Source: Azonexus sp. (lineage in GTDB: Bacteria; Pseudomonadota; Gammaproteobacteria; Burkholderiales; Rhodocyclaceae). Taken from it: 64,000 bases of DNA. This document shows positions 27,390-30,881 of this stretch, one piece after another. The position numbers and the translations under genes were made by a program. The stretch lies in assembly GCA_030696345.1 (NCBI GenBank), contig JAUYSK010000003.1, forward strand, positions 62,001 to 126,000. Reading direction: 5' to 3'. Position 1 is the stretch's first letter; the number at the start of each line of letters is the position of its first letter. The notes under the pieces are model-generated. The model saw only the letters and a program-made list of their open reading frames with translations, did not search any database and was not told the origin of the DNA.

Positions 27390-28865
27390 TCAGTCGATTC
27401 GCGTGTCCAGCCCTTGCTCGGCCAACTCGGCAGCGCGCAGGACGGCACGGGCCTTGTTCTGTGTTTCGGTCCATTCCGAACTGGGATCGGAATCGGCGAC
27501 GATGCCGGCGCCAGCCTGGACATGGAGTTGCTTGTCCTTGAGCACGGCGGTACGGATGGCGATGGCCAGATCCATGTCGCCGTTGAAGCCGAGGTAACCA
27601 ACCGAGCCGGCGTAAATGCCGCGCTTGACCGGTTCCAGCTCGTCGATGATTTCCATCGCGCGCACCTTCGGCGCGCCGGATACGGTGCCGGCCGGGAAGG
27701 TTGCGCGCAGCACGTCGAGCGCATCGAGCCCCTCCTGCAGCTTGCCTTCGACATTGGACACTATATGCATCACATGCGAGTAGCGCTCGACGATCATGTT
27801 CTCGGTGAGTTTGACCGTGCCCACTTTGGCGACGCGACCGCAGTCGTTACGGCCGAGGTCGAGCAACTGGGTGTGTTCGGCGCGTTCCTTCTCGTCGGCC
27901 AGCAGTTCGACGGCGAGGGCGGCATCTTCTTCCGGCGAGGCGCCACGCTTGCGGGTGCCGGCAATGGGACGCACGGTGACGCGGTCGCCTTCGAGGCGGA
28001 CAAGAATTTCCGGCGAGGCCCCGACAACATGGAAATCCTCGAAGTCGAAGTAGAACATGTAGGGCGACGGATTCAGGCTGCGCAGGGTGCGGTAGAGTGC
28101 CAGCGGCGTCGCGCCGAAGGGCTTGGTCATGCGCTGTGAGAGGACGACCTGCATGACGTCGCCTTCGGTGATGTAGTCCTTGGCCTTGAGCACGGCTTTC
28201 TTGAAGGCCGCTTCGCCGAAGATGGAGACGGCGGGCTCGGAATGCACCGGCTTCTCGGCCGGGATCACGACCGGCATGCGCAGCTTGGCGAGCAGTTCCT
28301 TCAGGCGCGCCCGCGCCTTCTGGTAGGCCCCGGGAAAACCGGGTTCGGCGTAAACGATCAGGGTCAGCTTGCCGGACAGGTTGTCGACGACGGCGATTTC
28401 TTCGGAGAGCAGCAGGCCGATATCCGGCGTCCCGATGTCATCCGGCTTGTGGGTACGGGTCAGCTTGGTTTCAACGTAGCGCACGGTGTCGTAGCCGAAG
28501 CAGCCGACCAGACCGCCGCAGAAGCGGGGCAGGCCGGCCTGCGGGGCAGCGCGGAAGCGCTTCATGTACTTGCCGATGAAGTCGAGCGGATTGGTGTCAT
28601 CCTCACGCTCGGCGATGCGGTTGCCGGTCAATACCAGGACCTGATGACCATGCACGACGATGCGGGTCTGGGCGGCCAGACCGATGATCGAGTAGCGACC
28701 GAAACGCTCGCCACCCTGCACCGATTCGAGCAGATAGGTGTAAGGCGTGTTGGCCAGCTTGAGATAGATAGAGAGCGGCGTGTCGAGGTCGGCAAACGTT
28801 TCCAGCGTAACGGGAATACGGTTGTAGCCTTGCGCGGCAAGCGAATTGAATTCGGTTTCAGTCAT
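27390..28865 (-). CDS. trpE: Anthranilate synthase component I
   Basis: Converts chorismate to anthranilate, first step of tryptophan synthesis. The 491-residue protein carries the feedback site region [18 protein letters not shown] (the LLES element that binds Trp), and the catalytic [31 protein letters not shown] and [18 protein letters not shown] motifs. It normally works with a TrpG amidotransferase, but no trpG follows. Upstream in the same direction are a Trp-rich leader ORF, gph and rpe. Confidence 0.95.
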
Positions 28866-28902
28866 GGGGAAGCCTCGAAAATGACAAGCGTTTTGCGGTC
28901 TG

Positions 28903-29016
28903 GTGCGTTGCGCCGGAAGGGCGCGCGAATGAAGTTCAGGAGCGCCAGCGGCGCCAGTCCTGAGCCCCGTCGAAGGGCCAGCCTTGCCATTCGTTCCAGA
29001 GTCGCAGAGTCATCAT
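28903..29016 (-). promoter_or_regulatory. Candidate trp attenuator/leader region before trpE
   Basis: Read on the minus strand, four 5-base segments alternate: GCGCC (28954-28950), GGCGC (28946-28942), GCGCC (28924-28920), GGCGC (28914-28910). Segment 1 and 2 overlap the last two Trp codons of the leader peptide; 2 can pair with 3, and 3 with 4, the logic of an attenuator. No T run follows segment 4, so control of trpE translation or Rho access is more likely than classical termination. This is inference from sequence. Confidence 0.5.
28936..29016 (-). CDS. trpL: Trp-rich leader peptide upstream of trpE
   Basis: A 26-residue ORF with five Trp codons at residues 7, 10, 13, 21 and 24 (LWNEWQGW and DWRRW). 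It starts in an ATGATGA overlap with the gph stop and ends 70 bases before the trpE ATG. A Trp fraction near one in five, next to the first gene of tryptophan synthesis, is the hallmark of an attenuation leader peptide. Too short for usual gene callers. Translation would be coupled to gph. Confidence 0.6.
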
Positions 29017-29693
29017 TTGTGTTTGAGGTCTTTAAAAGTAAGGGCTTGCTGGTAGGCAACAAGCAGATCGGATACTAGCGCATCGCAATCGGCACTGTCC
29101 ACCGGCTCACCCTCGTTGTAGCCGTAGGGCACGGCATAGGCCAGACAGCCGGCAGCATGGGCGGCATGAATGTCGTTGAGCGAGTCGCCGATATGCAGAT
29201 TGCGATCCGGCCGCACTGCGAAAAGACGGCAGGCATGCAGTATCGGTTCGGGGTGCGGCTTCTTGTGCGCCGTCGTGTCGCCGGAAACGATGACATCGAA
29301 GAATTCGGTCAGGCCCATGCGATCGAGCAGCGCCTCGGTGAACATGCCCGGCTTGTTGGTGACGACGCCCATCTTGAGGCCGCTCGCCTTCCAGGCCTTG
29401 AGACCTTCGATCACGCCCGGATAAATCAGGGTCAAACAGCCGTTGACCGCAGCATAGTGACGTTTGAAGGATTCGATGGCGGCGTGCAGCTTTTCGGCAG
29501 AAGGCGGCTGGGTGTGGGTCAGGCACCGCTCGACCAGTACTGCCATACCCTTGCCAACGAAGCTGTGAACCTCGGCCTGTGTCCGTGGCGGTTCGCCAAT
29601 TTCAAGCAACATCAGGCGGCAGGCTTCCGCCAGATCGGCGATGGTATCGAGCAGCGTGCCGTCGAGGTCAAAGGTGACGGATTGGAAATGCAT
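29013..29693 (-). CDS. gph: Phosphoglycolate phosphatase
   Basis: A 226-residue HAD hydrolase that removes 2-phosphoglycolate. Motif I FDLDGTLLDT, motif II VVTNKPG, Lys in GDTTAHKKPHPEP and motif IV IGDSLNDI are present with the usual helical cap. It starts one base inside the rpe stop and its TGA overlaps the Trp-rich leader ORF, giving the order rpe - gph - leader - trpE on one transcript, the common betaproteobacterial arrangement. Confidence 0.93.
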   Translation of the reverse strand: MHFQSVTFDLDGTLLDTIADLAEACRLMLLEIGEPPRTQAEVHSFVGKGMAVLVERCLTHTQPPSAEKLHAAIESFKRHYAAVNGCLTLIYPGVIEGLKAWKASGLKMGVVTNKPGMFTEALLDRMGLTEFFDVIVSGDTTAHKKPHPEPILHACRLFAVRPDRNLHIGDSLNDIHAAHAAGCLAYAVPYGYNEGEPVDSADCDALVSDLLVAYQQALTFKDLKHK

Positions 29694-30391
29694 CAGACTT
29701 TGCCCAGTTCGGCCCGCAGACTGCCGATGATCGAATCGTAGCGATGCGGGTCGCTGTCCTTGCCGGCGCCATAAACGGCGGAACCGGCAACGAAGGCATC
29801 GACGCCGGCGCGGGCGATTTCGGCGATGTTGGCAGTGTTCACGCCGCCGTCGATTTCGAGGCGAATGCGACGGCCACTTTCCTTCTCGTAGGCATCCAGT
29901 TTGGCGCGCGCCTGCCTGGCTTTGGCCAGCGTACCGGGAATGAACTTCTGGCCGCCGAAACCGGGGTTAACGCTCATTAGCAGGATGACGTCGATCTTGT
30001 CGAGGACGTAATCCATGTAGTCGAGCGGCGTGGCCGGGTTGAAGACCAGACCGCCCTTGCAGCCGGCATCACGGATCAGCGACAGGCTGCGGTCGACGTG
30101 ATCAGAGGCTTCCGGATGAAAGGTGATGATGTTGGCGCCGGCCTTGGCGAAATCGGGAATGATGCGGTCCACCGGCTTGACCATCAGATGCACATCGATG
30201 GGTGCTGCGGTGCACGGGCGAATTGCCTCACAAACCAGCGGGCCGATGGTTAAATTGGGAACATAATGGTTGTCCATCACGTCGAAGTGAATCCAGTCAG
30301 CACCCGCAGCGATGACGTTTTTCACCTCTTCACCCAGGCGGGCAAAGTCGGCAGACAGAATGGATGGGGCAATGCGGAAGGTGTGGGACAT
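29693..30391 (-). CDS. rpe: Ribulose-phosphate 3-epimerase
   Basis: Interconverts ribulose 5-phosphate and xylulose 5-phosphate in the pentose phosphate pathway. From the [16 protein letters not shown] start it is 232 residues, a TIM barrel with metal-site His and Asp in [36 protein letters not shown] and LEIDGGV. Longer in-frame reading would cover the promoter region. It faces apaG head to head; the protein looks Rhodocyclales-like whereas apaG looks Comamonadaceae-like. Confidence 0.95.
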
Positions 30392-30485
30392 GGCTTGTCT
30401 GGGGCTTGGGTGGCGTTGAAATGGCGACAGCGCGCATTTTCGCAGGCCTGACAAGGGCTTGCTGCAGCGCGGTAACATGCCGATC
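30392..30485. other. Probable junction between two genomes (rpe/apaG divergent spacer)
   Basis: To the left genes have moderate G+C and Rhodocyclales-like order; to the right G+C is visibly higher and order is Comamonadaceae-like. The crossover may lie in this spacer or in the conserved first about 45 codons of rpe. The spacer itself holds no clear promoter. Confidence 0.6.
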
Positions 30486-30881
30486 ATGTCGAAATACCAG
30501 TTCACCTGTGAAGTCGAGCCCCAGTACCTCAGCGAGCAGTCCTCGCCCGAGGAGGATCTGTACGCCTTTGCTTACACCATCACGATCACGAACACCGGTG
30601 ACGTGACGGCGCAGTTGATCGCGCGCCACTGGGTCATTGACGACGCGCGCGGCCACACCGACGAGATAAAGGGACTGGGCGTGGTGGGCAACCAGCCGCT
30701 GCTGCGCCCGGGTGAAGCCTTTCAGTACACGAGCGGCACACGGCTGCACACCCCGAACGGCACCATGCGCGGCAGCTTTTTCTGCGTGGCTGAAGACGGC
30801 GAACGCTTTGAAGCCCCGGTGCCGGAATTCGCACTCCAGGCCGGTGGCTCGGGCTCAGGTCCGGCCCGCGTGCTGCATTGA
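30486..30881 (+). CDS. apaG: ApaG protein (Co2+/Mg2+ efflux-associated)
   Basis: A 131-residue single fibronectin-III-like ApaG domain, with [38 protein letters not shown] and [16 protein letters not shown]. Mutants in other species affect cobalt resistance and Ap4A levels, but the biochemical role is unclear. It starts at MSKYQ (a second ATG is three codons upstream). The C-terminal extension ending PARVLH is typical of Comamonadaceae. It is the first gene right of the probable genome junction. Confidence 0.92.

Follow-up and report, generated by a model that had tools for sequence, protein, structure and literature searches.

Control of the tryptophan genes by attenuation is a textbook case, and it is taught as a choice between a terminator and an antiterminator. 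The enterobacterial trp attenuator (Rfam RF00513) and the locus studied here have in common a leader open reading frame (ORF) with Trp codons upstream of trpE. They differ in that our locus has no U-run terminator, is predicted to form a long-range stem to the Shine-Dalgarno sequence (SD) of trpE instead, and gives no Rfam match over cut-off.

The closest precedent that we have found lies upstream of leuA in Actinobacteria: in this LEU element, a proposed pairing joins Leu codons of the leader to the SD of leuA (PMC1262725). The LEU element is like our locus in having a short leader ORF rich in the amino acid of its pathway, and in the proposed pairing of leader codons with the SD at the base of a larger structure. 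In the LEU element, however, it is a run of Leu codons that pairs, before leuA, whereas in our locus it would be the leader start region and the first Trp codon, before trpE. Furthermore, a pseudoknot is proposed for the LEU element and a candidate binding protein is named, whereas the structure reported here comes from pseudoknot-free folding.

Other described systems resemble our locus in fewer respects. In the erm-type translational attenuators, described in part in PMC5118997, the downstream gene has an inhibitory stem that is opened when a ribosome stalls on the leader, as we propose here; the signal in the erm type is a macrolide-bound ribosome, whereas the signal here would come from ordinary Trp codons for which charged tRNA-Trp is short. 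Sinorhizobium trpL (PMC7298713, in part) and the attenuation of trpE/trpGDC in Pseudomonas putida (from a title cited in PMC8297930) can be likened to our locus by leader-based trp control alone, structures apart. Among the matches listed in our literature search, none dealt with a leader that governs trpE in Rhodocyclales or in Dechloromonas; an earlier description of betaproteobacterial trp leaders may exist, since key comparative work lay outside the reach of the search. We class the Trp leader described below as leader-peptide attenuation without a classical terminator, and we set it apart from classical attenuation because a terminator was looked for and was not found.

We refer to the whole 64,000-nucleotide stretch of DNA that was analysed as the window, and to the window's own locus among the compared trpE loci as L001. 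The genes and the leader of L001, all on the minus strand, are as follows.

27390..28865, minus strand: trpE, anthranilate synthase component I (Pfam PF00425 and PF04715), ATG at 28865.
28936..29016, minus strand: Trp leader ORF (trpL-like), 26 codons of which five are TGG, ATG at 29016, stop at 28936, with a second ATG at 29013.
28954..28977, minus strand: in-frame insert of 24 nt within the leader, coding for PFDGAQDW and bringing an extra (fifth) Trp codon; it lies in the loop, outside the arms of the predicted stem.
29013..29693, minus strand: gph-like HAD phosphatase, upstream (Pfam), its stop overlapping the leader start.

The leader is as the original prediction had it: its length and its five Trp codons, its beginning in the gph stop (the TGA is overlapped by the first ATG of the leader), and the 70 bases that separate its stop from the trpE ATG. 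Pfam searches on the neighbouring genes identify trpE, the gph-like phosphatase, and ribulose-phosphate 3-epimerase (rpe). Promoter-like sequences were matched twice on the minus strand, once inside gph (29101-29072) and once at the 5' end of the longest rpe ORF (30512-30483). The rpe gene agrees with that of the relative L032 at 213/226, the adjoining apaG at only 71/120, and G+C content rises from 60% to 67-69% at about 30400-30500 of the window; this break is either a chimeric assembly join or foreign DNA.

In order to ask how widely the leader occurs, we sought TrpE in 121 genomes of the family, 120 of which gave a match, and took 80 named loci, the best among 257, many of them titled Dechloromonas, Azonexus, Accumulibacter or Propionivibrio. 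The full comparison set comprises 217 trpE loci, with some repeats, and includes 80 further stretches and 27 order-level loci. An upstream ORF with at least two Trp codons in its last 16 is present at 174 of the 217. With the threshold raised to at least three Trp codons in the last 16, such ORFs are found at 59/110 family loci, where shuffled sequences lead us to expect 0.3 and reverse complements yield 0/110; at 59/79 of the named loci (0.3 expected); and at 12/25 loci from other families of the order (0.3 expected). By the same scan, 22/110 family loci have no upstream ORF with even two Trp codons. We conclude that the Trp leader before trpE is not due to chance.

Forty-nine sequences form a group with leaders of the Dechloromonas/Azonexus type. 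The clade consensus leader has 18 codons and 4 Trp codons, and of the latter the first, third and fourth are invariant in 49/49 sequences of the group. The 24-nt insert of L001 is shared with L033 only, among the other 48. Resemblance to a motif had raised the possibility that the insert is a dispersed repeat; this was discarded, as the pattern CCCTTCGACNNNGCTCAGGAC, with up to two mismatches allowed, occurs once in the genome (a statement about that pattern only). L051 and L005 carry in-frame inserts of their own, which differ from each other, behind the first Trp codon and ahead of the later ones; these too fall in the loop and spare the arms. In L081 (Dechloromonas sp. SSB2) the leader frame lacks its usual stop, there being one base fewer nearby, and runs into the trpE start; our RNA model, described below, scores this locus at 181 bits.

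A search at the level of the class, over a somewhat wider stretch, found an ORF with at least two Trp codons at 13/29 loci, some of them surely by chance. Six of the class-level loci outside the order (L224, L228, L229, L232, L239 and L241) have short Trp-rich ORFs just before trpE, and in these the same scan as used below for terminators found no terminator-like hairpin.

Depending upon the relative, the leader stands behind different genes. It follows rpe in L054, L084, L052 and L076, whereas upstream of it in L046 and L072 we saw no rpe and no gph, and apaG there is divergent (genes named from translations in both cases). The start coupled to gph translation that had been proposed is therefore to be divided: the overlap of stop and start is real at the window locus, but the coupling is dispensable, since the leader is kept without gph in relatives. 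These observations bear upon plain translational coupling, according to which translation of the leader (and of gph) opens trpE constitutively and the Trp codons are not a sensor. Such a reading draws support from the overlap itself and from the description of other leaders that are thought not to sense an amino acid (PMC4833913 and PMC8092293). It gives no reason, however, for Trp codons to stand in front of a tryptophan gene, and these codons are kept where gph is absent as well as in other families, with different peptides. We regard plain coupling as unlikely.

Several further features of gene context were recorded. L092 (Dechloromonas sp. STC_125) is a natural leader-less case: within its positions 102-446 we found neither gph nor a Trp leader, and trpE is preceded, at a distance of 11 bases, by the end of an rpe-like ORF. 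The gene after trpE in L032 resembles an amino-acid transporter, not a trp gene, as read from its translation. The trpD and trpB genes of the window's genome lie on other contigs, with neighbours that by their translations are trpG-/trpC-like and trpF-/trpA-like. A simple scan, which turned up some chance ORFs with 2-3 Trp codons, found no convincing Trp leader near trpD, trpB or two aroFGH genes of this genome.

The original prediction placed at the core of the control four short segments that pair alternately as 1:2, 2:3 or 3:4. The segments do exist: GGCGCC and GGCGC occur in Trp-Arg codons (within 28939-28956), and a further GCGCC/GGCGC pair lies past the leader stop, as follows.

28910..28926, minus strand: post-stop hairpin GCGCC/GGCGC (the earlier segments 3 and 4), with no U-run behind it.

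Because GGCGCC is self-complementary, pairing among these segments is promiscuous. Most of the 49-sequence group conserves the post-stop hairpin, but it is missing in L008 and L005, both of which keep the Trp leader. We reject the alternating scheme as the core of the mechanism, since its 3:4 hairpin is missing in two leader-bearing relatives and covariation is stronger elsewhere.

The same hairpin is important for weighing classical transcription attenuation, in which the GGCGC segments would act as antiterminator and terminator and Trp starvation would let RNA polymerase through. A leader of Trp codons 70 nt before trpE speaks for this explanation, as does a GC hairpin past the stop that most of the group conserves. 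On the other hand, the hairpin is absent in two relatives, and it is followed by no U-run, as had already been remarked and as we confirm. In the window scan, no terminator-like site is listed on the minus strand between leader and trpE, and the two minus-strand matches that it does contain (29064-29044 and 29448-29430) both lie inside gph. Across relatives, terminator-like hairpins appear at 5/174 leader loci, in a scan run without a known attenuator as positive control. This low count supports the earlier suggestion that the leader acts on translation and not on termination.

Known families of RNA elements were compared as well. The Trp_leader model RF00513 has no match in window positions 28000-30000 at E up to 5; with stricter filters it exceeds its cut-off in 0/61 genomes of the family, the E. 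coli control being positive, and weaker matches in 4/61 lie on contigs other than that of trpE. The only Rfam matches of any kind in window positions 28000-30000 are to MAT2A_C and CPEB3_ribozyme, both far below gathering scores. In 20 of the 217 loci, searched at E up to 1, no Rfam match was found, T-box included. Taking both sides together, we hold classical attenuation to be very improbable at this locus.

What the spacer does contain is a long-range complementarity. By sequence, the upstream flank of the leader, its start codon and its first Trp codon can pair with the approximately 40 nt before trpE, the SD GAGG included. In the aligned spacers, the 5' arm begins at GACCUC, takes in the leader AUG and ends at the first UGG. 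The parts of the predicted stem at the window locus, from the outer 5' arm inwards and then towards trpE, are as follows.

29021..29030, minus strand: outer 5' arm GACCUCAAAC, whose CCUC pairs with the trpE SD GAGG (probability 0.99 in the window).
29010..29018, minus strand: middle 5' arm AAAUGAUGA, holding the leader start codon and pairing with UGUCAUUU upstream of the SD (probabilities 0.57-0.93).
28996..29006, minus strand: inner 5' arm UGCGACUCUGG, ending in the first Trp codon and pairing with CCAG..CGCA (probabilities 0.92-1.0).
28888..28903, minus strand: inner 3' arm CCAGACCGCAAAACGC, identified from the duplex swap test and pair probabilities.
28877..28887, minus strand: middle 3' arm UUGUCAUUUUC, identified from the covariation alignment and pair probabilities.
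28863..28876, minus strand: trpE SD GAGG to AUG, the predicted sequestered ribosome-binding site (modelled SD accessibility in L001 without ribosomes, 0.06).

The conserved structure thus exceeds the attenuator first proposed on both sides, and reaches from GACCTC (29030-29025) to the trpE SD and start (to 28863). Within the inner arm of the window locus, the pairs UGCG:CGCA have probabilities of 0.92-1.0 and the pairs CUGG:CCAG of about 1.0. The overall folding energy of the region is ordinary (z = -0.75).

We assessed the stem by several procedures. In the first, the two inner arms were swapped among 12 leaders, dereplicated from the 49: the native duplexes have a mean energy of -12.2 kcal/mol, against -9.5 +/- 0.5 for swapped ones, and 0/100000 permutations are as low. 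For L001 itself, 4/11 swapped partners score better than its own. Compensatory changes, in examples read partly by eye, include AGCG/CGCU in L035, UUGCA/UGCAA together with CACUG/CAGUG in L038, CGUAAC/GUUACG in L004, GCAACUGG/CCAGUUGC in L054, and GCGUAC/GUACGC in L031.

A covariance model was built from 20 sequences. The covariation in this 20-sequence alignment alone is weakly above that of shuffles, because the sequences are too conserved. Given 62 loci, the model matches 46 of them, with L001 at 152 bits and L023 as a marginal match (E 0.014). In the alignment of the 46 matches, double changes occur in 20/34 pairs, compared with 5.8 +/- 1.2 in shuffled and 3-7 in slid alignments, counts that ignore kinship; 89.5% of cells are paired, compared with 33-67% in the slid controls. 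For the outer arm, the corresponding values are 98.4% of cells paired and double changes in 3/4 pairs. RNAalifold places its helices in the same places, with 22 pairs of which 12 show double changes. The 46-sequence alignment is fitted to the structure and includes the marginal L023; the covariation counts and the RNAalifold result lean on this alignment, whereas the swap test does not.

Beyond the closest relatives, we compared native leader-to-SD complementarity with that of permuted partners in 115 dereplicated loci. The native score is 35.5, against 29.7 +/- 0.46 for permuted pairs, and 0/20000 permutations are as high. Ranked locus by locus against swapped partners, 23/115 natives fall in the top 5% (about 6 expected) and 51/115 in the top 20% (about 23 expected). 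The best 5' arm overlaps a leader start at 73/115 loci, compared with 30-48 in six permutations. A generic test of duplex energy on the 115 dereplicated loci gives -21.2 against -18.4 +/- 0.28, which is significant overall and noisy. L001 does not stand out in either test, its native pairing being no better than swapped ones (rank fractions 0.74 for complementarity and 0.81 for duplex energy). Strong cases of complementarity in other families of the order include L195, L200 and L208. At L209 there is a perfect 27-nt complement between the leader (-128 to -101 of trpE) and the trpE ribosome-binding region (-35 to -8); it is repeat-like, and is perhaps an inserted repeat.

These comparisons support the view that the SD of trpE is sequestered by a conserved, covarying predicted stem. 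Complementarity of a like kind is found again within the family and in certain other families of its order.

It is natural to ask where a ribosome would have to stand in order to open such a stem. By static folding of the 49 sequences, the mean accessibility of the trpE SD without ribosomes is 0.03-0.05. When a single ribosome is placed so that its A site holds the first Trp codon, the mean rises from 0.05 to 0.16, whereas one ribosome at the leader stop gives 0.07; the value at the first Trp codon is the higher of the two in 44/49 sequences. The effect of a single ribosome is modest because CCUC:GAGG lies upstream of the ribosome footprint, and queueing or co-transcriptional timing must therefore be assumed. 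When the whole 5' arm is covered, accessibility reaches 0.36-0.39, compared with 0.03 when later leader codons alone are covered. There are sequences in which covering up to the first Trp codon leaves the SD closed (L064, L072 and L084, with 0.06, 0.07 and 0.01). In a wider set, covering the leader start lifts accessibility by at least 0.1 at 56/98 loci, compared with 2/98 for covering the leader end. The Trp codons sit some 20 codons past the leader start in many relatives, and therefore the stalled ribosome itself would not cover the arm there.

The evidence from these sequences and their modelled folding points to control of the trpE SD by ribosomes on the leader, and we infer the response to tryptophan from the Trp codons and from the nature of trpE. 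We consider it likely that control of trpE by the Trp-codon leader is a case of translational attenuation. As long as charged tRNA-Trp suffices, ribosomes would clear the leader, the stem would re-form, and trpE would be closed. When charged tRNA-Trp is short, ribosomes would stall at the Trp codons, and the first of these codons is itself part of the 5' arm; the stalled ribosomes, together with a queue behind them (of leader or gph ribosomes), would hold the 5' arm open and leave the trpE SD exposed. Thus, ribosomes held on the leader in Trp scarcity would probably expose the trpE SD and switch tryptophan synthesis on. Queueing is the weakest step of this scheme, and it would be needed both for a large effect and for those relatives in which a long distance separates the start from the Trp codons.

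A further explanation would let the RNA itself be the target. Stalling on the leader, or the closed stem, might alter the access of Rho or of RNase to the spacer, with pairing of the SD secondary. The lack of a terminator-like site between leader and trpE accords with this, and a closed, untranslated trpE would lie exposed to Rho, which we count in its favour. It does not predict, however, that the supported pairs should centre on the SD and the leader start, and we judge an output by Rho or by RNA decay to be most unlikely.

If translational attenuation is indeed the mechanism, the question arises of how general it is. The order to which the window belongs (Betaproteobacteria, by its named relatives) may have a widespread and undescribed class of Trp leaders, a proposal for and against which we see the case as evenly balanced. 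In such a class the leader start and early codons would serve as the anti-SD of trpE, so that closing trpE would close the leader and any queue on the leader would open trpE. The result would be a terminator-free switch responding to tRNA-Trp, in which the peptide and the sequence drift and the complementarity is kept.

Attenuation in this form would employ the same kind of sensing peptide as the classical one and a different likely output, namely the closing of the leader start and of the trpE SD alike by one long-range stem. The shifts of arm register among relatives constitute a natural set of compensatory mutants. If the proposal is true, one could test directly at this locus how stalled and queued ribosomes are turned into access to a downstream start site, and the proposal would explain how many relatives without a matching Rfam element control their first tryptophan gene.
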